A DNA stretch of 64,000 nt from assembly GCA_017395085.1 (NCBI GenBank), contig JAFPWF010000024.1, positions 183,142 to 247,141 on the forward strand. The letters are read 5' to 3'. The notes below the pieces were generated by a model. That model searched no databases and was not told the DNA's origin. It was given only the letters and a program-made list of their open reading frames with translations. Numbering within the stretch: the first letter of the stretch is position 1; each line of letters opens with the position of its first letter. Position numbers and translations under genes: made by a program. Positions 2,112-17,178 of this stretch are shown here, one piece after another. The stretch comes from Oscillospiraceae bacterium (GTDB taxonomy: Bacteria; Bacillota; Clostridia; Oscillospirales; Oscillospiraceae).

Positions 2112-4568
2112 ATGAACCCGACAAACGATGAAATGAACAGCCGCGCCATACAGGAACTGGCCGAGACGAACCGCCTCCTCACCGACCTGACCAAGGCGGG
2201 AAGCTGGACCATCAACTTTGCGCCGGACGGCACTCCGGCGTCCGTGCAGTGGGGCGACGGCCTGCGCCGGCTGATCGGCTATACCGACCGGAACGATTTT
2301 CCAAATGAACTGGAACCCTTCGTGCGGGGCGTTTACCCCGAAGACCGGGAAGCCGTGCTCAGCCATATAAACTCCGGCGTTTTTGACGAAGACGTTCTGG
2401 GCAAAAAGGGCTACGATTTCCGCTTCTGCCGGAAGGACGGCACGGTCCGTTGGTTCCGCATCATGGGCGTACTCGCGCGGGACGACGAAGGCAGGCCGGT
2501 GCAGTGCCGGGGCGTGACCATCGACGTCACCGAGGTGAAGGAACACGACGCCCTGTACGCCGCACTGCAGAACGAAGCGGCCTCGCTCGACACCATCCAC
2601 GAGATGCTCGGCTCCGGAAAATGGAACATGGACTTTGACGAAGCGGGCGAGATGGTCCGCGTCAGCTGGAGCGACGAATTCCGCAGGATGCTCGGCTACC
2701 ACGGGACGGACGACTTCCCCGACGTGCTGGAATCCTGGTCCGACCTGCTGCATCCCGACGACAAAGACCGCGTGCTGCGGGAATTCAACGAAACGATTAC
2801 CGACCGGACCGGCCGGAAGACCTACGACGTGGAGTACCGCTTGCTGACGAAGAACCGGGGCTACCGCTGGTACCGCGCTGTCGGAAAACCCACGCGCCGG
2901 CCGGACGGCACGCCCATCACATACATCGGCGTGTTCATCGACATCACCGAGCGGAAGGAAATGATCCGGGAACTGGCGCAGCAGCGAGAATCGCTGAGCA
3001 TCGCACTGGAGGAGGCCAACCAGGCAAACAAGGCGAAGACGGCCTTCCTCTCCAACATGAGCCATGAGATCCGCACGCCGATGAACGCCATCATCGGCCT
3101 GGACCGCATCGCCCTGAATGACCCCGGCATCTCCCCGGAGACGCGCGAGCACCTGCAGAAGATCGGCCTTTCGGCGCAGCACCTGCTCAGCATCATCAAC
3201 GACATCCTCGATATGAGCCGCATCGAATCCGGCCGCCTGACCGTGAAGAACGAGGAGTTCTCCTTCGCAAACATGCTGGCCCAGGTCAACACGATCATCG
3301 GCGGCCAGTGCCGGGACAAGGGCCTCGGGTACGAATGCCGCATGAAGGGTGCGGTCGACGACTATTACATCGGCGACGACATGAAGCTGCGCCAGGTCCT
3401 CATCAACATCCTCGGCAACGCCGTCAAGTTCACGCCCGCGGGCGGCAGCGTCGAGTTTGACGTGGAAGAGGCCGCCCGCTTCGGAGGCAAGTCCACCCTG
3501 CGCTTTGTGATCCGCGACACGGGCATCGGCATGAGCAAAGAGTTCCTCCCCAGACTGTTCGACGCCTTCAGCCAGGAGGATTCCTCCACCACCAGCCGCT
3601 TCGGCAGCACTGGCCTGGGCATGGCCATCACCAAAAGCTACATTGAGCTCATGCACGGGACGGTTGCCGTCGAGAGCGAAAAGGGGAAGGGAACGACCTT
3701 TACCGTCACCGTCACGCTGACGGACAGCGAGCGCAAGAGCGCCGGCGAAGAGGAAGACGTCCTGCAGCCGCACGAACTCTGCGTGCTGGTCATAGACGAC
3801 GATCCCATCGCCTGCGAGCACGCCCAGCTGGTGCTGGGGCAGGTTGGCGTGAACTGCGAAAAGGCCCTGTCCGGGGCCGAGGGCCTGCAGATGGTGAAGC
3901 TCCGCCACGCAAGGCGCGAGCCCTACAACCTGATCCTGGTGGACTGGCGCATGCCCGACATGGACGGCATGGAAACAACCAGGCAGATCCGCGCCGCCGT
4001 GGGCACCGAAACGCCCGTGATCATCCTGACCTCCTACAACTGGGATGAAGTGGTGGACGAGGCGAGGGAGGCCGGCGTGGACACCTTTGTGGCAAAGCCG
4101 CTCTTCGCCGGGACGGTGCTGGACGAGTTCCGCGAGGCCTTCAAAAAGAAGAACGCCGCTCGCTTAGGGGAAAAGGCGGACCTCAGGTGCCGAAGGGTCC
4201 TGCTGGCGGAAGACGTCGCCATCAACGCCGAAATCATGATGATGGTGCTCTCCATGCGCGAGATCGAAGCGGAGCACGCCGAAAACGGGCGCATTGCCGT
4301 GGAGATGTTCGCATCGCACGAAGCGGGCTATTACGACGCCGTCCTGATGGACATGCGGATGCCCGAGATGGACGGCCTGGAGGCGACCCGGAGAATCCGG
4401 GCGATGGACCGGGCGGACGCCAAAACGGTTCCCATCATCGCGCTGACGGCAAACGCCTTTGACGAGGACGTGCAGCACAGCATGCAGGCGGGCCTGAACG
4501 CGCACCTGAGCAAACCGGTGGAGCCGGACGTCCTGTTCGAGACCCTGGAAGGACTCCTGAAGCGTTAA
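2112..4568 (+). CDS. Soluble hybrid histidine kinase (PAS-PAS-HisKA-HATPase-REC-REC)
   Basis: 818 residues from the ATG at 2112, chosen because GGGAGA precedes it; an in-frame upstream extension has no such site. Two PAS/PAC domains (about residues 25-145 and 160-285, each ending in a TDVTE/IDITER-like motif) are followed by HisKA with the phospho-acceptor His in NMSHEIRTP (about residue 318). An HATPase domain follows with the N box (ILGNAVKF) and DTGIGM and GSTGLGMAI loops. Two receiver domains end the protein, with acceptor Asp in LVDWRMPDMDG and LMDMRMPEMDG. There is no membrane span or signal peptide, so it senses a cytoplasmic cue. No output-domain response regulator lies next to it, and its partner is unknown. 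Confidence 0.9.
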   Translation: MNPTNDEMNSRAIQELAETNRLLTDLTKAGSWTINFAPDGTPASVQWGDGLRRLIGYTDRNDFPNELEPFVRGVYPEDREAVLSHINSGVFDEDVLGKKGYDFRFCRKDGTVRWFRIMGVLARDDEGRPVQCRGVTIDVTEVKEHDALYAALQNEAASLDTIHEMLGSGKWNMDFDEAGEMVRVSWSDEFRRMLGYHGTDDFPDVLESWSDLLHPDDKDRVLREFNETITDRTGRKTYDVEYRLLTKNRGYRWYRAVGKPTRRPDGTPITYIGVFIDITERKEMIRELAQQRESLSIALEEANQANKAKTAFLSNMSHEIRTPMNAIIGLDRIALNDPGISPETREHLQKIGLSAQHLLSIINDILDMSRIESGRLTVKNEEFSFANMLAQVNTIIGGQCRDKGLGYECRMKGAVDDYYIGDDMKLRQVLINILGNAVKFTPAGGSVEFDVEEAARFGGKSTLRFVIRDTGIGMSKEFLPRLFDAFSQEDSSTTSRFGSTGLGMAITKSYIELMHGTVAVESEKGKGTTFTVTVTLTDSERKSAGEEEDVLQPHELCVLVIDDDPIACEHAQLVLGQVGVNCEKALSGAEGLQMVKLRHARREPYNLILVDWRMPDMDGMETTRQIRAAVGTETPVIILTSYNWDEVVDEAREAGVDTFVAKPLFAGTVLDEFREAFKKKNAARLGEKADLRCRRVLLAEDVAINAEIMMMVLSMREIEAEHAENGRIAVEMFASHEAGYYDAVLMDMRMPEMDGLEATRRIRAMDRADAKTVPIIALTANAFDEDVQHSMQAGLNAHLSKPVEPDVLFETLEGLLKR

Positions 4569-4653: not shown

Positions 4654-5616
4654 TCAGCCGATGTAGTCCCAGAGGTTCAGGGTTACGTCGGTCTTCGTCT
4701 CGTCGTCGATGATGCCGGGGACCTGCTCGGTCACATAGGTGCTGCCCGAAACCGGGTCGATGTAGTAGCGGTTGATGGCACCCGTGGATGCGCGGAACAC
4801 CACCACGATCTCCTGATCGCCGCTGGAAGCGATATCCCAGTAGAAGGGCGCGCCGCCGTTACCCGTGTTGTCCTCCAGGGACGGGTCCTGCGTTACACAG
4901 TACTTCTTCACCGCGGCAAGAGCCTGCTCGTCGGTAATTTTTTTGTGGTCGCCCACAATGACGGTGGTGCCGTTGCCGTCACCGGGCCCCTGCACGACCG
5001 CGGCCGTGGGAGTGGGAGAGGGCGTGGGCGTCGCGGCGGCTGCCGTGTCGGCGCCGCGCACGGTAATCATGGCCGTATCGGTGTCCTTATAGCCGGCGGC
5101 GTTGGTGTAGCGGCAGAACACGCGCCAGCCGTTTGCCGAGGCGGGGATGCTCTTCAACTGCAGGTTGGGCGTGGTCGCGTTCAGGATCTCCATATCGGGG
5201 TGCGCTTCCTGCACGGCGGCGCCGGTCAGGTCGGTCTGGCCGTCCGGGCTGACAAAGTGCCAGGCCAGGCTCTGGTAGTTATCGGCCCTTGCCGTAAACC
5301 AACAGTTGCCGCCTTTGTCCACGGTCTCCCCGAGGGGGCTCTTGGTGATCACGGGCAGCTGCCCCGCGGGGGCTGGGGTCGCAGCCGGGGTCGGCGTCGG
5401 AGTCGGGGCAGGAGTGGGCGTCGGCGTCGGAGTCGGGGTCGGAGTGGGAGTAGGCGTCGGTGTGGGTTCCGGCGTGGGAGTGGGCGTCGGGGCCAGGGTG
5501 GCCGCGGGCACCAGAGTCGGCGTCGGCACGGGGTTGGGCTTGCGCAACAGGCCGCAGCCTGTCAGCAGCAGCGCCGTCATCGCAAGGCACAGGGCCAGGG
5601 ATAAAATTTTTTTCAT
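4654..5616 (-). CDS. Ig-like lipoprotein with long Pro-Thr linker
   Basis: 320 residues. An N-terminal lipoprotein signal ends in LLTGC (lipobox), so the mature protein should be tethered to the outer face of the membrane. A low-complexity Pro-Thr/Pro-Ala stalk (about residues 28-85) follows; its DNA is a repetitive hexanucleotide-like tract that could change length by slippage. Next comes an Ig-like module with [10 protein letters not shown] and [14 protein letters not shown], then a second TPTPSPTPT linker. The C-terminal domain (about 225-320) has a PepSY-like look ([23 protein letters not shown]). The Ig-like module resembles one in the secreted protein at 21567..23171. It is monocistronic between terminators. 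The function is unknown, probably cell-surface. Confidence 0.7.
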
Positions 5617-7535: not shown

Positions 7536-8711
7536 TCAAATCAGTGATACGAGGATTCCGATGATGATCACTGACAGACCATTTGAGATAAGAGTTGTAC
7601 TGAAGTTTAACTGAGATAAAAGCGCACCTTCAACAGCGCCTTGCTTGTTAGGGGCTGCGGTTTTGGCAATAAGGGATGCGAGGCTGCGATTAACAGGGTA
7701 GCCCATGATAGAGTTCAGAGCCAATACCATCCCCGCATATGGGCCGATAGACATCCGCTTACCCAGGAAGTATCCACAGAAAGCAAGAATTAAAGTACCG
7801 ATAAACAGAGAGAACAATGTGGGGGCAACCAAAGATAGCAGAGTCGTCAAAGATGTGTGGGCAAGATTGTTTGCCATCAATCCCATCAGGCTTAGAATCA
7901 GCAGCCCGTAGGTGTCGGATCTAAACAGAGGCGCTCTGTCGATCAAGCCAAGATTAGCAGCGATCATGCCGAACAGCAATGCTGTGATGTTGGGGTTGAT
8001 TCCGGAATTCCTGAGCAGTGTGCTATGCAGCAAATTGTTGAGTGCTGTCAGCAACATAATTGTTCCGAGATACCACGCTGTTGTTTTATATTCTGCAGGG
8101 AGGCGATCAACAGTTTTCTTCTTGCCTTCCGTTTTTTTGTGCCGGGCAACTTCTGCTCCGTCAGGCAGTTCATCCTCAAGTTGTTTTGCTTCTTTCCTGA
8201 GCGCCCAGAATAAGAACGGCATAGCAAAAAAACCCTGAAACATGAAGATAATCCAAGGATAAAATGACAAGCTGGGGTATTTGTCCATAACCCATCGGGA
8301 CCCGATCGCGCATGAAGCACCGCCGCCGATTATGGCTCCTGGCGAAAGCAGCGCGAGAGAGCGACCGAAAACAGGCCAGAGAATACCGACCAAAAGTACT
8401 GTCATGATGAGTGAACAGGCAACGACATGGAGAGTCTCTGTTTTTTTCATTTTTATTGTGCGGAAATCCAGCATGGTTCCGGAATGTACGATAAGGACAT
8501 TGAAAGCAATGGTGCCGACACTAACCAGATTTGCTGATAGCAGCATGTCTTCGGGAAGGATGTGTTTTGCAAAGCCGATACAAAGCAAAACACCGAAAAC
8601 AAGAGGCATTGGCAAGAACCACTTCAGTTTTGTCGATACTGACTCTGAAACAAAAACAATGATCAGAAATACCAGAAAACTTTTGGCAAAGGTCCATGTA
8701 TATGCTTCCAT
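7536..8711 (-). CDS. Multi-pass permease, GltS/ESS-like
   Basis: 391 residues with about ten hydrophobic segments arranged as two halves around a charged loop (KKTEGKKKTVDRL, near residue 190). The Gly-rich re-entrant-like segment SPGAIIGGGASCAIGSRW in the first half and LALNSIMGYPVNRSLAS in the second recall sodium:glutamate symporters and similar inverted-repeat carriers. Family placement is tentative. The gene lies 91 bases downstream of the hydrolase at 8803..10647 on the same strand, so the two are probably one operon. Its cargo is then likely the substrate or product of that hydrolase. GGGGGA precedes the ATG closely. Confidence 0.6.
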   Translation of the reverse strand: MEAYTWTFAKSFLVFLIIVFVSESVSTKLKWFLPMPLVFGVLLCIGFAKHILPEDMLLSANLVSVGTIAFNVLIVHSGTMLDFRTIKMKKTETLHVVACSLIMTVLLVGILWPVFGRSLALLSPGAIIGGGASCAIGSRWVMDKYPSLSFYPWIIFMFQGFFAMPFLFWALRKEAKQLEDELPDGAEVARHKKTEGKKKTVDRLPAEYKTTAWYLGTIMLLTALNNLLHSTLLRNSGINPNITALLFGMIAANLGLIDRAPLFRSDTYGLLILSLMGLMANNLAHTSLTTLLSLVAPTLFSLFIGTLILAFCGYFLGKRMSIGPYAGMVLALNSIMGYPVNRSLASLIAKTAAPNKQGAVEGALLSQLNFSTTLISNGLSVIIIGILVSLI

Positions 8712-8802
8712 AAATCCCCCTATATGGTGTCATGCTACCGGAGCACGGAACGCGGTTCCCTCTTGCTGAGAGAACCGCGCATTCTGTATTTGGGCAGACG
8801 AC

Positions 8803-10647
8803 TCAGTGCGTTGCACCCTTGCCGCTCCCACCGATGACTACATCGTCGTCACAGATCGGCTGAAGCCAGTTTTCCTGCGGTGTATAAGGAATGTACGGCA
8901 TCAACAGGTAGGATGGGTGGTCTTTATCCCGATAGATCTTATAATTGATGGTGTTGCAACTGGGGATTGGCCCCAGATGGCTCATTTTTGCCTCCCAGGC
9001 ATCCTTCTGGGCTTCAAAGTTATCCATCGCCTTGATTTCCAGCTCAATCGATGTGCCGGGACCGAAGACCATGCCGATGGGGTTGACCTCGATGACATAT
9101 TCCCGGATTTCGCCCGGCGTGATCGGCTCGCGGTGAGAGTAATCATGAACAGGTCTGCCGATTTGGCTCTTTTCCGGATCAAGCGGATAGCTCATCTTCA
9201 GCATGCCGGGGCGGCACACGGGCATCTTTGTTCCGCCGGCGGTGATCTGCCAGAGCTTTACGATGATATTTGCATCTGGAGCATCAATAGAAGCCCAGAG
9301 ATGCAGTTCGATGGGGCCTGTGAAACGGGTAGGCATACTGAAGCGGTCGGTACGGTAAACGAGTGTTTCCACCTCGGTCGTGATATGAGGAGGACGGTGA
9401 GTAAAGCTGTCAGGAGGAAGATTCCCTTCGGCAGGGCACTCCCAGCGAAGCTGATGGAAGGTGTGAAGGAACAATTTCTTCCACTGTGTCCGAGCAAGAG
9501 GATACTCGTGTTCATAACAGTATCCGCGCCCAAGAATGTTCATCTTCATCGGAGGCTCTTCCGTGATACCGGTGTCCACATCCTTCAACCAGTGGTCGTA
9601 CCAGCGCAGGCATTCCGCATCCATAAAGCGGTAGGGGAGCTCCATTCCATTATAACCTTCCATTACACCGCAGCGCTTATATGCTTTGGTGTCAGGAGAG
9701 TTCATGGCATTGAAGACAGGAGCGCTCCAGCGGCCTGTGGGAGCCCAACCGCATTTAAAGTAAGCCGGTACCGTCAGCTTGTCATATTTGTACTTCATGG
9801 ACCGGTCTTTCCAGTATTTGTCCTCGTTGGGGTGCAGCAGATAATCCAGATAGAAGGTGTGATATTTCGGGGGCCATACAGAGAAAATCTTACTGAAGAA
9901 AGTGTTGATTGCAATGTCTGGGTCTTTCTGCACTTCTTCGATCCGTTTCTTTGTGGCCTCCTCACCTTCCTCATGAAGCGTCCAGGAAGCGGGATTGTTG
10001 GAGGGACAGAGCTCCCAGTACATGTTCATGTAGGTGTTTCCGACACCGCCGTAATGCCCGTGCTGATAATAATCGTCCGTATAGCTCAGCGGCATGATGC
10101 ATTTCAAATGCGGAGGTTGAAGTGCTGCTACCAGAGGCTGGATGATACCAAAATAACTGTAACCGTGAAGGGCTACTTTCCCATTGCTCCACTGGCATTG
10201 TGTACCCGCCCACTCGACAGTATCATAACAGTCAAGCTGTTCCTGGGGATTGTAAACGCCAAGGAACTCGCCCTCACTTTTGCCAATTCCTCTCGGATCC
10301 GGGATGATAAAGGTGTATCCGCGCTTGACATAGAAATCCATGTCGCCGGCTTCCAGACTATGGTCAAAATAGTTGGATTTTCCTGGAAGGGAGCCATGCC
10401 GCATGGCCTGCATACCTTTGCTGTAAGCAGACCAGGCAATCAGAGCAGGAGCTTTTTCAATCTCTGCGGGATGATACACATCACAGAAAATCTTGCAGCC
10501 GTCTCTGAGAATAATAGGAACATCTTTCTCAACCGCAACGGTGTACTCAGGCTTGGACAGTTTCTCAAGGTTTTTTGTATAGCGCCTGTCCCAATAAACA
10601 GGTGCGTTGTCGAGCCCGGTTAATTGTACAAACTCGTCCTGATGCAT
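8803..10647 (-). CDS. CocE/NonD-type alpha/beta hydrolase, copy A
   Basis: 614 residues with the layout of CocE/NonD and X-Pro dipeptidyl-peptidase S15 hydrolases: an N-terminal alpha/beta core with DPRGIGKSEG and the nucleophile elbow GYSYFG (Ser164), then a C-terminal jelly-roll (IELHLWASIDAPDANIIVKL, GEIREYVIEVNPIGMVF). The usual acid motif GWYDGF is GWAPTGRW here (about 300-307). The usual GPWxH histidine motif is replaced by MEGYNGME (about 329-336). The canonical Asp and His therefore appear absent. It is a paralogue of 13218..15035. No signal peptide is seen. It is the first gene of a minus operon with the permease at 7536..8711 and probably responds to the Crp/Fnr protein through the operator at 10721..10740. 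Confidence 0.85.
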   Translation of the reverse strand: MHQDEFVQLTGLDNAPVYWDRRYTKNLEKLSKPEYTVAVEKDVPIILRDGCKIFCDVYHPAEIEKAPALIAWSAYSKGMQAMRHGSLPGKSNYFDHSLEAGDMDFYVKRGYTFIIPDPRGIGKSEGEFLGVYNPQEQLDCYDTVEWAGTQCQWSNGKVALHGYSYFGIIQPLVAALQPPHLKCIMPLSYTDDYYQHGHYGGVGNTYMNMYWELCPSNNPASWTLHEEGEEATKKRIEEVQKDPDIAINTFFSKIFSVWPPKYHTFYLDYLLHPNEDKYWKDRSMKYKYDKLTVPAYFKCGWAPTGRWSAPVFNAMNSPDTKAYKRCGVMEGYNGMELPYRFMDAECLRWYDHWLKDVDTGITEEPPMKMNILGRGYCYEHEYPLARTQWKKLFLHTFHQLRWECPAEGNLPPDSFTHRPPHITTEVETLVYRTDRFSMPTRFTGPIELHLWASIDAPDANIIVKLWQITAGGTKMPVCRPGMLKMSYPLDPEKSQIGRPVHDYSHREPITPGEIREYVIEVNPIGMVFGPGTSIELEIKAMDNFEAQKDAWEAKMSHLGPIPSCNTINYKIYRDKDHPSYLLMPYIPYTPQENWLQPICDDDVVIGGSGKGATH

Positions 10648-10695
10648 TGCACAGTCATTCCTTTCTGTTGAAATCTGGTTTCAGATGATAGTATC

Positions 10696-10740
10696 ATTCT
10701 AATACGCGAAACAGACACTGTCTGTCATGAAACTGACAGA
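10696..10740 (-). promoter_or_regulatory. Crp/Fnr-type operator and promoter for hydrolase A
   Basis: TCTGTCA-N6-TGACAGA (10721-10740) is a perfect dyad with the 5-6-5 core spacing of Crp/Fnr sites. A minus-strand TAGAAT (10696-10701) would give a start near 10689, placing the operator centre about 41.5 bases upstream, the class II activator position. A second palindrome, ACAGACA-C-TGTCTGT, overlaps at 10711-10725. The same core recurs at 11579-11594. Confidence 0.65.
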
Positions 10741-10757
10741 AAGAGGTTTTTTCCGCA

Positions 10758-11459
10758 TTACGTCCTGAGTTCGCTGTTCATGATAATCTCCATCAGGCTA
10801 TCGTAATCCAGAACAGAAATCTTGCCGCGGTCTGTACTGATCCATCCGTTTTTTCGCCAGTCTCCCAGAATTACTGCAGCTGTCTGGCGGGCCATCCCGG
10901 CGGTGGATGCCAGTGCCTGCTGTGTAATTCGGACTTCACGGGGGCTGCCAGGCTCGGAATTTGAGGGAAGAAGATTAATGAGAGTGAATGCAAGCCGGCC
11001 GGGTGCGTCCATATACATGGAATTGAGCATGTTTTGGGCGCTGTTGGTCAGCCGTTCCACAAGCTCCTGAATCACGACCCTGCAAATACCGGGATTCGCC
11101 CAGGCTAGTTTTAAAAAAACGCTTTTTGGCATGATGACGAGCTCTGAATCTTCCATGGTGATCGCAGTATTCAGATAATTCATGTCAGTCAGCAGAGCAG
11201 TTTCACCAAAGTACTCACCCGGTGATTTTACTTTCACAATCATCTCAAGGCTTTCTCTGTAGGAAAAGAGTTCCATGAGATAACCCTTTTTCAGAATGTA
11301 CAGGTAGTTTGCCACATCGCCTTTCTGGTACAGAAACTGGCTGCGCTTTACACGGGCTATTCTGCAGTTCCCGCTTGCTTCTTCCAGCATTGCGGCAGGC
11401 ACTGAGCAGAACAGTTCAGTATTCTTTAAAAATTGAAAGACAGTTTTTTTGATGTCCAT
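10758..11459 (-). CDS. Crp/Fnr-family transcriptional regulator
   Basis: 233 residues from the ATG at 11459, chosen because AAGGGAG lies eight bases upstream; a GTG six codons earlier lacks a site. The N-terminal half is a cyclic-nucleotide-binding-like beta roll (FLYQKGDVANYLYILKKGY, then SPGEYFGETALL). The C-terminal half is a winged helix-turn-helix (ITQQALASTAGMARQTAAVILGDWRKNGW). No Cys cluster suitable for an iron-sulfur centre is visible, so the effector is unknown. It lies between two hydrolase/transporter modules, and matching dyads upstream of both suggest that it activates both. Confidence 0.85.
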   Translation of the reverse strand: MDIKKTVFQFLKNTELFCSVPAAMLEEASGNCRIARVKRSQFLYQKGDVANYLYILKKGYLMELFSYRESLEMIVKVKSPGEYFGETALLTDMNYLNTAITMEDSELVIMPKSVFLKLAWANPGICRVVIQELVERLTNSAQNMLNSMYMDAPGRLAFTLINLLPSNSEPGSPREVRITQQALASTAGMARQTAAVILGDWRKNGWISTDRGKISVLDYDSLMEIIMNSELRT

Positions 11460-11578
11460 GTTTGCCGCTCCCTTCACTGAACGGAAAGTCCCTGTGATTC
11501 AATGTATCATCTGCTTCGGTCGAGCGCAAGCACTTGTTCCCGGTGTTGCCAAAAAAAACAATGAATTCTCTTGCCTTG

Positions 11579-11622
11579 TGTCAGCTGGATGACAGCGAAC
11601 CTAAGTGATAGGATGCTATTAT
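11579..11622 (+). promoter_or_regulatory. Crp/Fnr-type operator and promoter for the APC permease
   Basis: TGTCA-N6-TGACA (11579-11594) has the same core as the site at 10723-10738. A TATTAT (11617-11622) would place a start near 11629, so the operator centre falls about 42 bases upstream, again class II geometry. This lies about 100 bases before the permease ATG. Confidence 0.6.
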
Positions 11623-11696
11623 TAAAACAGCCGTATAGAAACTGCAGGCATAGTTTCTTTCATCCGCAAATATAATAATCGAAAGAGGGGAATTTC

Positions 11697-13091
11697 ATGA
11701 ACAACCAAAGTAGGCAAAAAATCGGTCTGTTTTCATGCATCCTGATGGCTGTTGGCAGCATCATTGGCGCGAGTATCTTTGCTACAACACCCGTAGCGAT
11801 CAAGATTGTTGGAGGCAACGGCGTTGTCATAGGCTTTATTCTGGCGGCCTTCGTAGTTGTGCTGAGGACACTGCCGGAACTGATTATGATGGCAGCACTA
11901 CCGGCTAACGGTGCATCCTATATGTACCTGTCCCGACTCGTTCATCCGCTTCTCGGAGTTCTTGAGACTTTCAACGAGCTCATGGTCGGAGTGCTGAAAA
12001 TTGCAACGATGGCGCTGACGTTCTCCACTTATTTTGCCATGCTGTTTCCGGCAATTCCGGCACAGTTGGTGGCTGTTGCGGTCTGTATTGTTTTTACGAT
12101 TATCTCCTGCTACGGCATCAAGGCGTCTGCAACCGTACAGAATATTTCCGTTGCGGTACTCATAGTCGCGCTCGGCGTTTTCATTTTCGGAGGATTGGGC
12201 GCTACGAAAGTCAGCTTTGGCGAAGTCATTTCAACCACGGTACAACTAAGCGCTCTCTGGGCGGCAATGGGTATTATGCACGGTAGCCTGATGGGCGCGA
12301 ATGTGCTGATCTACGCCGCAGAAGAGGTGGAAAATCCGGGACGGAATATTCCCATTGCATTTGCAGTTTCAACGGGTATCACGGCAATCATTTATGCAGT
12401 CATGGCTTATATCTGCGTTGGTGTTATGCCAAACTTCTACCAGATTGACAACCTGGCGACCGTCGCTTCGCAGTATCTGCCGCAGGCATTGCTGGTCTTC
12501 TTCATTACCGGCGGCGCTCTCCTGGCAGTTGTAACCAGCGTCAACTCCGCAATGCTCATGTTCTCACGACTGAATTTCTCGGCTGCCAGGGACGGAGTTC
12601 TTCCTTATGCGGTCTGCAAGACAAATAAACATAATGCTCCCTATGTGAGCCTCTGGCTGATTGGAATCATGGCGAGCTTGTTTATCATCAGCGGCTTTGA
12701 CCTGGAAGATGTGGTAAAAATCACGACAATCCCCGGACTACTGCTCAGCCCGATTCTTTTCCTTGGTGTTTTCACCATCAAAAAACATTATCCGAACTGC
12801 TACAAAAACTCCTATATTAAAACGCCTCACTGGCTCAACTGTATTTTTGCTGCGGTAGCAATGGTGGTATGCTTTATGCTAGGCTATTATGTGCTGTTCC
12901 AGATGAAGCCGCACAACTGGATCGTCATGATCTGCTATTATGTGGCGGCTGCCATTTTTGTCTACTTCCGTTATCGCCAGATTAAGGAAAAAGAAGGGGT
13001 CAGTCTTTTCGATAAAATGCGCGCTACCTACCAGCCCTGGGAAGAGAGGGAGCAGGCAGCGAAAGAGGCTTTGGGCGATAAAGCGGTTTGA
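11697..13091 (+). CDS. APC-superfamily amino acid permease
   Basis: 464 residues with about twelve hydrophobic segments. The first helix has the APC signature VGSIIGASIFATTPVAIKI (unwound helix with the substrate-binding Gly motif). Later LIYAAEEVENPGRNIP matches the conserved E-NP loop of amino acid/polyamine/organocation carriers. It sits in the cytoplasmic membrane and probably imports an amino acid or small amine. GAGGGG precedes the ATG. The hydrolase at 13218..15035 follows on the same strand, so the pair mirrors the hydrolase-permease pair on the other strand, though this carrier is from a different family. Confidence 0.87.
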   Translation: MNNQSRQKIGLFSCILMAVGSIIGASIFATTPVAIKIVGGNGVVIGFILAAFVVVLRTLPELIMMAALPANGASYMYLSRLVHPLLGVLETFNELMVGVLKIATMALTFSTYFAMLFPAIPAQLVAVAVCIVFTIISCYGIKASATVQNISVAVLIVALGVFIFGGLGATKVSFGEVISTTVQLSALWAAMGIMHGSLMGANVLIYAAEEVENPGRNIPIAFAVSTGITAIIYAVMAYICVGVMPNFYQIDNLATVASQYLPQALLVFFITGGALLAVVTSVNSAMLMFSRLNFSAARDGVLPYAVCKTNKHNAPYVSLWLIGIMASLFIISGFDLEDVVKITTIPGLLLSPILFLGVFTIKKHYPNCYKNSYIKTPHWLNCIFAAVAMVVCFMLGYYVLFQMKPHNWIVMICYYVAAAIFVYFRYRQIKEKEGVSLFDKMRATYQPWEEREQAAKEALGDKAV

Positions 13092-13145
13092 TTTTTCTAT
13101 GATATTATTGTCCGGATAATCAGGAATGGTGTCCGGATGACAGAC

Positions 13146-13187
13146 AGCGTCCTGGGCATATGTTATGATGCATATGCCTGGGACGCT
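13146..13187 (+). other. Long intercistronic stem-loop
   Basis: A 17-bp stem with two G-T pairs (13146-13162 with 13171-13187) and an eight-base loop lies between the permease and hydrolase B, followed by ATTATCTTTTT. It could be a leaky terminator or an mRNA-stabilising structure that sets the ratio of the two genes. Confidence 0.6.
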
Positions 13188-13217
13188 GATATTATCTTTT
13201 TCGGAAGGAGATAGATT

Positions 13218-15035
13218 ATGAAGAAAAGAATCACGGAAATACTGGGTATTGATACACTGCCGAATTATTGGGATAAACGCTATGTGAAGAATATTGATAA
13301 ACTGTCCCGCCCCTGTTATGAGGTGGAGTGTCACAGAGATGTCTGGATGTCGCTCCGGGATGGTGTGCGGCTTTGTGTCGACATTTATCTGCCGAAAGAC
13401 GCGGGGCCGGTTCCTGCCCTGATCAGCTGGTCGGCTTATTCAAAAACAATGCAGGGAATCAAGCGCGGTGCCATCCCGCCGGAATCTCTTCTTTTTGATC
13501 ACAGTCTGGAAGCCGGTGACATTGATTATTTCGTCAAACGCGGTTATGCCTATATCATACCGGATCCCCGCGGAATAGGTAAAAGTGAAGGGGAGTGGTA
13601 CGGGGTATACAACCCCGTGGAGATGAGGGACGTCTATGATGTCATCGAATGGGCAGCAGCGGAAGAATGGTGCGATAGCAATGTCGGTATGGTCGGTTAC
13701 TCTTATTTCGGCATTTGCCAGATTCTTGCTGCAGCATGGCAGCCCCCGCACCTGAAGTGCATCATGCCATGCTCATTTGTGGATGATTATTATCAGCACG
13801 GTTACTATGGCGGCGTTCCGTCCACATACATGAGCATATACTGGGAACTGAGCCCGTCTTCAAACCCCGTGCCATGGTCGGTGCAGATGTACGGTGAAGA
13901 AAAAGTGCGCGCGATGATGGCAGAACGGTTAAAGGATCCGGATATAGCAGTGAACAGCTATTTCACAAAGATTTTGACAACATGGCCGCCAAAGTACCAT
14001 ACGTTCTATCTGGATTATCTGCTGCATCCGCTTGACGGTGAGTACTGGCAGCAGCGCAGCGCAAATCAGATCTATGACAAGGTGAAAGTGCCGGTGTACC
14101 TGCACTGCGCCTGGAGTCCGATCGGCCGTTGGAGCGCCCCGATCTTCAACGCAATGACCGATGACCGATTGTCATGCCCCAAGAGGCTTGGCGTTCTCGA
14201 AGGGTATGATGGATTGGAACTGCCCTACAGAGCCCTGAATGAGGAGTGCCTGCGCTGGTATGACCACTGGCTGAAGGGCGTGGATACCGGCATCATGGAT
14301 GAGCCGCTGTATAAGTTCACGGTTCTCAACAGCGGAGTCCGCTATGAAAATGAGTGGCCGCTTCAACGAACCGAATGGAAGAAACTGTATCTTCGCTCCT
14401 TTGGACGTTTGCGCTGGGATCGTGAACCGGACAGCGATCTTCCGCCGGACGGATTTATGCATCTCCCGCCGTCCATATCGACAGAAGTTAACAGGCTCGT
14501 ATATAAAACATCCCGCTTCCCGCATCCGATGGAAATCACAGGACCGATTGAGCTTCATCTCTGGGCGGCTTTCGATCAGCCGGATGCCAATATTCTCGTG
14601 GAGCTGTGCGATGTTCTGCCGAGCGGAGAGCGGATGCCGCTCTATCGCTACGGTGCGCTTCGTGCGTCCCATCCGCTAGATGAAGAGAGAAGCAAAATTG
14701 GCGCGCCTGTGCACGACAACACGGTTTCAGTTCCTGTAACGCCAGGAGAAATCCGGGAATACGTTATCGAGATCAATCCTACGTCCATCATGATTCCCGC
14801 CGGTCACTGGCTTGAGCTGGAGATTACGAGTCAGTGTCCGAATCCCTGCCACAGCGAGACATGGACTGGCAAGGTTGGCAATATGAATGTGATTCCTGCT
14901 GCAGCTACAACGTCGTATAAAATCTACCGCGATAACAATCATCCGTCTTATCTGCTGCTGCCGATCATCCCGTATACGCCGTCTGAGAACTGGGTACGGC
15001 CGTTTGAGGATACTGACGAGATCGACACAGAATAA
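13218..15035 (+). CDS. CocE/NonD-type alpha/beta hydrolase, copy B
   Basis: 605 residues, collinear with copy A at 8803..10647 (same YWDKRYVKN start, DPRGIGKSEG, jelly-roll end and C-terminal PYTPSENW). The nucleophile elbow is GYSYFG (Ser162). The usual Asp motif is AWSPIGRW (about 298-305) and the usual His motif is LEGYDGLE (about 327-334), so like copy A it seems to lack the standard acid and base. No signal peptide is visible. GGAAGGAGATAG precedes the ATG. It probably acts on an ester, amide or peptide whose parts enter through the neighbouring permease. The substrate cannot be read from sequence. Confidence 0.85.
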   Translation: MKKRITEILGIDTLPNYWDKRYVKNIDKLSRPCYEVECHRDVWMSLRDGVRLCVDIYLPKDAGPVPALISWSAYSKTMQGIKRGAIPPESLLFDHSLEAGDIDYFVKRGYAYIIPDPRGIGKSEGEWYGVYNPVEMRDVYDVIEWAAAEEWCDSNVGMVGYSYFGICQILAAAWQPPHLKCIMPCSFVDDYYQHGYYGGVPSTYMSIYWELSPSSNPVPWSVQMYGEEKVRAMMAERLKDPDIAVNSYFTKILTTWPPKYHTFYLDYLLHPLDGEYWQQRSANQIYDKVKVPVYLHCAWSPIGRWSAPIFNAMTDDRLSCPKRLGVLEGYDGLELPYRALNEECLRWYDHWLKGVDTGIMDEPLYKFTVLNSGVRYENEWPLQRTEWKKLYLRSFGRLRWDREPDSDLPPDGFMHLPPSISTEVNRLVYKTSRFPHPMEITGPIELHLWAAFDQPDANILVELCDVLPSGERMPLYRYGALRASHPLDEERSKIGAPVHDNTVSVPVTPGEIREYVIEINPTSIMIPAGHWLELEITSQCPNPCHSETWTGKVGNMNVIPAAATTSYKIYRDNNHPSYLLLPIIPYTPSENWVRPFEDTDEIDTE

Positions 15036-15102: not shown

Positions 15103-15137
15103 CTCCACCGGGTAGTTTCCTCTCCGGTGGGGCATTT
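15103..15137 (+). terminator. Probable intrinsic terminator
   Basis: A CCACCGG/CCGGTGG stem (15105-15111 with 15124-15130) is followed by GGCATTTT, after hydrolase B. Confidence 0.6.
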
Positions 15138-15225
15138 TCTATCCTTGCGCATCAAACTGTTCCGTGGTACAGTTCCAGTATAGGGTAGAAGGTCACACGG
15201 AAGAGATGTCCGTTGAGGAGGAAAC

Positions 15226-16078: not shown

Positions 16079-16122
16079 GCTGGTTGCGGGATAAAAGGCT
16101 TAAAAGCAGTAAGGAGAAAAAA

Positions 16123-17178
16123 TTGAGCGAATTAATTGATATCTTTGATGAAGAGAGAACGTGCGAGTTTAAAGGCGAAGTATATTCAGTGCGTGACAAT
16201 GGTTCTGTTATGCGCCACAATAAAGAGGGTAAAAAGCCAAGACCACTTGATAATAAGTGGACTTTTGGGAAATTAGATACCCAACATGGATATTTAACGA
16301 TTGGATTAGTTGCTGTTCATAGAATTGTTGCCACAGCTTTTTTAGGTGGGCAGCCATCGGATAAACATGTTGTAGACCATATTGATACCAACAGACAGAA
16401 CAATAGGCCAAGTAATCTGAGATGGCTAACCAGATTAGAAAATATTGTATTGAATGATATAACACGATCAAAACTTGAACAGTTATGCGGTTGCCCTATT
16501 GATGAAATACTAAGTGATTTATCTATTCTAAGAAACATACCTTTGACACCACAATTTGAGTGGATGAGAGCCGTTAGTAAGCAAGAGGCGGAACAGTCAC
16601 TTATAACATGGAAGAAATGGGTTAATTGGTTATCCGAAAACAAGGAAAAGAAAAGAAATACGCTATTAGCGGACGAATATAAAAACAAACGAAACAGCCC
16701 TATACGTTCATCAAATCCAAATGGTGTGAATGAGCCACTTGGTGCTTATTATGATAGGCTGAATAAATGGGTTGATAAAGCATCAGAAAGAAAAGAGCAT
16801 GAAATCCCGGCAGAATATAGAAATGGGCGTAATGGATTTATATACCCATTAGAACCACAAGGTGCAGAGGCATCACTTGATGCTTATTATCATAGTCTTA
16901 AAACAGACGAAGTGTTCTGTTATAAAGATTATCCAAGTGGAAGGTATTCATTCTATATAATTGATTTTTGCTTAAATAAAGAAACAAATATTTTATCTGT
17001 TGCAACGACAAATCATAGTGAGGTAAAGCCCTTATACTTAACAGGTGTTACTTTGAGTAATGACGGTTTTGAATATGATACTCAAAGCTTTTTCACAGGA
17101 GAAGGCTTGTCAAAATATATGACTCTAGCTAGAGGCGAAGAATGGACTGGTGGAGATGTGTTTGATGATTATTGTTAA
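16123..17178 (+). CDS. HNH endonuclease-like protein
   Basis: 351 residues from a TTG start at 16123, chosen because AAGGAG lies seven bases upstream; an in-frame TTG 13 codons earlier has no site. The central region carries the HNH pattern: VHRIVATAFLGG, then VDHIDTNRQNNRPSNLRWLTRLEN (His-Asn-His fold of phage and intron HNH enzymes). The C-terminal half has two related segments of about 45 residues (DEYKNKRNSPIR...GAYYDRL and AEYRNGRNGFIY...DAYYHSL), perhaps DNA-binding modules. The gene is clearly more AT-rich than both neighbours, uses A/T-ending codons and stands alone, which suggests recent transfer. No intron or intein is visible around it. Confidence 0.75.
   Translation: MSELIDIFDEERTCEFKGEVYSVRDNGSVMRHNKEGKKPRPLDNKWTFGKLDTQHGYLTIGLVAVHRIVATAFLGGQPSDKHVVDHIDTNRQNNRPSNLRWLTRLENIVLNDITRSKLEQLCGCPIDEILSDLSILRNIPLTPQFEWMRAVSKQEAEQSLITWKKWVNWLSENKEKKRNTLLADEYKNKRNSPIRSSNPNGVNEPLGAYYDRLNKWVDKASERKEHEIPAEYRNGRNGFIYPLEPQGAEASLDAYYHSLKTDEVFCYKDYPSGRYSFYIIDFCLNKETNILSVATTNHSEVKPLYLTGVTLSNDGFEYDTQSFFTGEGLSKYMTLARGEEWTGGDVFDDYC

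Follow-up and report, generated by a model that had tools for sequence, protein, structure and literature searches.

The 64,000-nucleotide stretch analysed here (the window; contig JAFPWF010000024.1 of assembly GCA_017395085.1, positions 183,142 to 247,141, from an Oscillospiraceae bacterium) carries, between 7.5 and 15.1 kb, a block of five genes that we explain, with a probability of about 0.8, as a local class II regulon of a Crp/Fnr-family regulator. A gltS-like carrier gene, the hydrolase gene hydA and the regulator gene crp lie on the minus strand, and the permease gene apc and a second hydrolase gene, hydB, on the plus strand (Table 1). An earlier reading made from the letters of the window (the sequence-only reading) had described two paralogous CocE/NonD hydrolases and two carriers on opposite strands around a Crp/Fnr gene, and the gene calls bear this out. 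The gene content, the operator-like dyads, their fixed spacing to a predicted promoter element, their conservation and their locality are established by computation. Together they give a sharply predicted, complete regulon (regulator, operator, spacing and targets) for an uncharacterised block that occurs in several named isolates. A local Crp/Fnr class II regulon is a known kind of system; the block itself is without described function in the literature searched. None of the papers listed in our searches dealt with this gene block, and the written forms of the dyad led to CooA only. The same promoter position in distant bacteria indicates a dedicated switch for nutrient use, possibly of a nutrient that yields aspartate.

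Operators and predicted promoters

The sequence-only reading had reported one identical dyad, TGTCA-N6-TGACA (N, any base), upstream of hydA and apc, about 42 bases before the predicted starts. Both copies (O1 and O2) are exact and are the sole two matches in the 64 kb, and with starts predicted from the -10 elements their centres fall near -41.5 (hydA) and -42.5 (apc), as that reading had it. When up to two mismatches are allowed, the window holds 17 dyads vs 20.9 expected; these are no commoner than chance, and thus the exact sites alone stand out. The genome of the window (2.52 Mb, 84.5% complete) contains five exact dyads vs two of a reversed control, and the three outside the block are inside open reading frames (ORFs). 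Read from the sequence, the window has no -10 at the matching distance facing crp.

Named genomes were scanned with an alignment of five hydrolase sequences; the best 80 of 185 confirmed stretches gave 74 loci, and their gene layout was determined by tblastn. Two of the numbered loci evidently repeat others: L058 and L036 (genome G244) are one contig, and so are L062 and L037 (G296). Related blocks were found in Oscillospirales, Lachnospiraceae, Fusibacter and Spirochaetota, and the cultured relatives in the set include Faecalicatena orotica and Mediterraneibacter massiliensis. The order hydB-apc/crp-hydA occurs in Lachnospiraceae and Oscillospirales and is rearranged in Fusibacter, other Clostridia and Spirochaetota. 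In L036, which comes from a related genus, both sites persist with changed bases (TGTCG-N6-CGACA and TGTCT-N6-AGACA), and the motif was therefore refined from TGTCA to TGTC arms, that is, to TGTC-N8-GACA.

Dyads are kept where the genes are kept: within 250 bp upstream, TGTC-N8-GACA precedes hydA in 19 of 22 cases and apc in 18 of 22, with a shuffled expectation of about 0.06 for each and of 0.04-0.07 dyads per gene class. It also precedes gltS (6/19) and hydB (2/19), where such genes lead their own unit or diverge from apc, and the dyads upstream of crp (13/22) are those of apc (or, in L063, of a leading hydB) seen from the other side. These counts leave out L062 and L065-L069, which are partial, at a contig edge or without the block, and the distant hydrolases of L070-L115 are uncounted. 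Two loci with block genes and no recognisable crp adjoining them (L054 and L060) have no dyad either; nor does the uncounted L067, which has a 52% identical hydB-like gene and no crp. We also ranked 3840 four-base dyads (256 arms with 15 spacers, 0-14) over 40 lead-gene regions, leaving out L054, L060, hydA of L050, internal genes and L047 (a near-duplicate of L046). TGTC-N8-GACA came first, in 37 of the 40 regions, and the runner-up (15/40) is a nested version of it.

The distance to the promoter is fixed as well. Among 45 sites hand-listed by dyad match with at most one mismatch (again without L047), TANNNT starts exactly 21 nt downstream of the dyad in 36, vs 0-5 sites at any one of the other offsets between 8 and 35. 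Since these sites were picked by dyad match, the constancy of their arms is given by construction; the upstream counts, the ranking and the spacing are not so constrained. With predicted starts, the 36 sites combine a dyad at -41.5 with a -10, the arrangement of a class II promoter. In L045, where a -10 lies at 21 nt on both sides of the dyad between apc and crp, self-regulation of crp is likely.

A search for dyad-N21-TATANT over 20 host genomes returned 30 hits in 14 genomes (reversed control, 7). As 25 of the 30 fall inside the block, the regulon looks local, which supports the complete local regulon proposed in the sequence-only reading. A genome-wide regulon is ruled out under this strict pattern, to which the exclusion applies, the genome-wide search for looser sites not having been extended to relatives: five hits fall outside the block, three of them inside ORFs.

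The block is best explained as a catabolic island that is self-contained and encodes its own switch. Acting as a class II activator on TGTC-N8-GACA dyads whose centres lie at -41.5, the Crp/Fnr protein would contact RNA polymerase directly; the promoters concerned have a -10 and a weak -35. Its targets would be hydA (with gltS) and apc-hydB, as well as gltS on its own in loci where this gene is separate.

Hydrolases, carriers and candidate substrates

HydA and HydB are 55% identical, and both belong to the CocE/NonD family by their scores above the TIGR00976 cut-off of 66.3 bits (Table 1). All 42 aligned hydA/hydB rows (at least 59% identity) keep the nucleophile Ser in GYSYFG or GYSYYG; in the same rows the aligned acid and base loops read [WF][SA]P.GRW and, after a strand that ends in Glu, a.Y...ELPYR-type sequence. 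The acid and base of the triad in CocE are Asp259 and His287. Identity to CocE cocaine esterase and CocE/NonD structures is 20-27% in structural alignments, and a difference from them is that Asp and His are not found at the aligned positions. Sister rows have [YF]YD and.HDD there (L070, L071) or YYE and EHD (L072). We nevertheless take both hydrolases to be probably catalytically competent, perhaps by way of a displaced acid or base. The question they raise, and the most interesting loose end of this analysis, is what a CocE-type enzyme uses in place of the usual Asp and His.

Adjacent CocE-type paralogues are also seen in more distant relatives, namely L070 (8236-9975/9968-11752), L071 (8167-9981/9992-11764) and L072 (7145-8935/8956-10734). 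One member of each pair is without the nucleophile Ser (GCGTAG, GTGFAG and GCGYAG, respectively) and its partner keeps it (GISYFS), so that from their motifs these may be pairs of an active and an inactive enzyme.

The label 'GltS-like', which goes back to the sequence-only reading, is not supported by any family model: at E 0.001 the carrier has no match to a family of Pfam or NCBIfam, and at E 1 its sole match is an implausible Innexin. Its predicted structure is closest to CitS (a Na+/citrate symporter), then to AspT (an aspartate:alanine antiporter), the nearest folds, with which it shares only 8-16% identity. The same reading had divided the block into twin modules of one hydrolase and one carrier each. 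This division holds within the window and fails in relatives, where gltS lies downstream of hydB (L043, L044, L045) or has its own dyad (L046, L047, L048, L056, L059); hydA is therefore not tied to one carrier. In L056, apc is split over two overlapping frames (7575-8965), by a frameshift or an assembly error.

Accessory genes narrow the substrate to a testable range. In five Lachnospiraceae-type loci (L043, L046, L047, L048, L056) a gene for aspartate ammonia-lyase stands between hydB and gltS, with an additional gene between it and hydB in L046 and L047. The enzymes of L043 and L056 score 712 and 716 bits against NF008909 (cut-off 510), and 662 and 665 against the equivalog model TIGR00839 (cut-off 681); those of L046, L047 and L048 were recognised by clustering with these two. 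Aspartate aminotransferase type Ic, above cut-off, follows hydB in L042 and lies beside gltS in L060, and an aspartate-aminotransferase-like gene below cut-off adjoins gltS in L050. Malic enzyme adjoins gltS in L046, L047 and L049. That one block has recruited different aspartate-consuming enzymes suggests aspartate as a product released by the hydrolases, and we give a substrate of this kind about an even chance. In such a pathway, an acidic compound resembling an amino acid, and/or the product made from it, would be transported by the permease (APC) and the carrier of CitS/AspT-like fold; the CocE-type enzymes would cleave this compound, and the aspartate set free would enter central metabolism through deamination or transamination. 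A fuller picture, in which pairs of CocE-fold enzymes with a rewired centre act on an undescribed aspartate conjugate under a metabolite-sensing Crp/Fnr regulator with a CooA-type operator, as a cassette spread between Bacillota and Spirochaetota in gut and sediment anaerobes, is doubtful when taken as a whole.

Points against the regulon, and rival explanations

Several observations weigh against the regulon and the pathway attached to it. In the window itself the dyad of apc lies 22 nt, not 21, from its -10, and 9 of the 45 listed sites have no TANNNT at 21 nt. Dyads are missing upstream of apc in L049 and of hydA in L050, have one mismatch at apc of L048 and hydB of L057, and are absent from the uncounted L068, where apc and crp stand beside a hydA fragment. 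Sequence alignment places neither the triad Asp nor the triad His at the aligned positions of the two hydrolases. The block of the window itself shows no aspartate enzyme, and the best candidate for aspartate ammonia-lyase in its genome (84.5% complete) reaches 417.5 bits vs a cut-off of 681.2. Finally, a PatB-family C-S lyase adjoins hydB in L036 (3112-4293) and hydA in L053 (805-2121), and L042 has a PatB-like protein, just below cut-off, near hydB (2164-3372).

These lyases may instead be a sign of a sulfur compound. The substrate would then be a conjugate of cysteine or another sulfur compound, or an ester of an unrelated kind, with the aspartate enzymes as incidental neighbours. CocE itself, which gives the closest structures their name, is an ester hydrolase. 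This explanation is possible, if less than likely, given that different lineages have different aspartate-consuming enzymes (the ammonia-lyase, the aminotransferase type Ic) and that the fold of the carrier resembles those of CitS and AspT.

The regulator could also be a repressor, covering the promoters until it is released by a metabolite of the pathway. At its 3' end the dyad extends into the -35 region (for hydA, the consensus match consists of the first hexamer CAGACA, a spacer of 17 nt and TAGAAT), so that binding there could also block RNA polymerase. We consider such repression improbable, and infer activation instead, because the fixed 21-nt spacing (36/45) is the geometry of a class II activator, and a repressor site need not hold its distance. 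For other members of the Crp/Fnr family, a class II mode is described in PMC12531629.

The regulator belongs to the Crp/Fnr superfamily (PF00027, 61 bits; PF13545, 50.1 bits; both above cut-off), its matches to CRP-like models of NCBIfam are below their cut-offs, and CRP structures are among its nearest sequences in PDB. With E. coli CRP it shares the two-domain Crp/Fnr architecture, the 5-N6-5 dyad spacing and the class II geometry at -41.5. It differs in its half-site, TGTC, where that of E. coli CRP is TGTG, and in its recognition helix, which reads RQT in 23 of 24 aligned rows (the exception, L069, is a poor match) and RET at the aligned position of CRP. The change to RQT goes with the replacement of TGTG by TGTC; Glu181 of CRP presumably contacts this base pair, and CooA presumably has Gln there. 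Arg82 and Ser83 of CRP form the pocket for the phosphate of cyclic AMP (cAMP). The window residues that can be aligned to Arg82 are L96 (ungapped) and N97 (with one gap); neither is Arg, nor is there an Arg in any of the 24 rows. We therefore reject cAMP as the ligand.

The operator itself recalls CooA, which senses carbon monoxide (CO) via heme. Its consensus is given as TGTC-N8-GACA in PMC7306483 and written TGTCGGCNNGCCGACA in PMC545781, and some relatives of the block (L036, L053, L063) have TGTCG-N6-CGACA. Were the regulator a relative of CooA, the block would belong to a response to CO or redox state, which we regard as very improbable. According to PMC12937710, the heme of CooA needs the absence of the region that matches residues 72-82 of E. 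coli CRP; this region is present in all 24 aligned rows (GETALLTDMNYLN in the window), and with this heme-incompatible segment retained we reject membership in CooA. In addition, the sensor domain has no invariant His or Cys across the aligned regulators. The targets also differ, being hydrolases and carriers rather than CO dehydrogenase; no CO dehydrogenase or hydrogenase is found among the block genes and the scanned neighbours, the remaining flanks being unscanned. A CooA-type operator is thus likely in use outside CO metabolism. With the CooA-excluding segment present and the phosphate-binding Arg absent, our guess is that the effector is a small pathway metabolite, and neither cAMP nor CO-heme.

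That the dyads are chance palindromes, which is ruled out by the upstream counts, the fixed spacing and the dyad ranking, or functionless remnants of common ancestry can be dismissed, despite the exact copies in coding sequence and the lack of enrichment of two-mismatch copies in the window, since the dyad is present in 37/40 lead-gene regions over two phyla at a fixed distance from the -10, with variation in the inner and flanking bases, and is missing from L054 and L060, the loci that lack crp.

Gene block, flanks and distribution

Table 1. Features of the block and its surroundings (positions in the window)
Feature	Position	Strand	Remarks
gltS-like carrier	7536-8711	-	predicted CitS/AspT-type elevator fold
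hydA, CocE/NonD hydrolase A (Peptidase_S15 + PepX_C)	8803-10647	-	TIGR00976 214 bits; PF02129, PF08530
Predicted -10 of hydA, TAGAAT	10696-10701	-	21 nt from dyad O1
Operator O1 of hydA	10723-10738		TGTCATGAAACTGACA; between crp and hydA; exact TGTCA-N6-TGACA; arms extend to TCTGTCA/TGACAGA
crp, Crp/Fnr-family regulator	10758-11477	-	GTG start, alternative ATG at 11459; PF00027, PF13545
Operator O2	11579-11594		TGTCAGCTGGATGACA; between apc and crp; exact TGTCA-N6-TGACA
Predicted -10 of apc, TATTAT	11617-11622	+	22 nt from dyad O2
apc, amino-acid/polyamine/organocation (APC) permease	11697-13091	+	PF13520 122.7 bits; TIGR00909 128 bits, below cut-off
Hairpin of 19 pairs between apc and hydB	13145-13188	+	single copy in the window's genome assembly
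hydB, CocE/NonD hydrolase paralogue	13218-15035	+	TIGR00976 258 bits; AlphaFold pLDDT 91; CocE-type fold
Terminator-like inverted repeat after hydB	15105-15139	+	CCACCGG, loop 12, CCGGTGG, short T run; read by eye

The hairpin between apc and hydB could be an element of transcript processing or attenuation. The inverted repeat after hydB, whose loop of 12 kept it out of a hairpin scan with a loop limit of 8, is likely the right edge of the block. According to the sequence-only reading, the block was richer in AT than its flanks. Its GC content (0.47-0.52) is indeed below that of the left flank (0.57-0.62), and above that of the 15-18 kb on the right (0.44-0.45), which are richer in AT still; further AT-rich stretches lie at 48-51 and 59-62 kb of the window. 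No tRNA genes were found in the 64 kb and no Rfam matches in 5-18 kb, which rules out a tRNA-linked integration site or a known RNA element there.

The block is patchily distributed. Among 300 genomes sampled from the family of the window, only G244 and G296, besides its own, have hydrolases at least 55% identical to HydA, and no match came from the five listed relatives of the same genus. In a sample of the order (394 genomes, E 1e-150) two pass, one of which is the window's own. An empty site was not found in the two genus relatives read, where ppk2 was the sole match among 13 window genes tested. The cupin gene after hydB has no homologue at E 0.001 in the 28 loci L042-L069, and a plasmid search with the regulator returned 132 records, all below 60% identity. 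In the hydrolase tree, which mixes Bacillota and Spirochaetota, L042 is the nearest relative of the window for both hydA and hydB. The patchy spread, the mixing of phyla in the tree and the GC content below that of the left flank fit horizontal transfer, by which the block has probably spread.

Directly right of the block, a markedly AT-rich stretch carries an HNH endonuclease-like gene (16084-17178), possibly a selfish element at the edge of the island. To the left, at 4654-5616, lies a predicted lipoprotein with a long Pro-Thr repeat.

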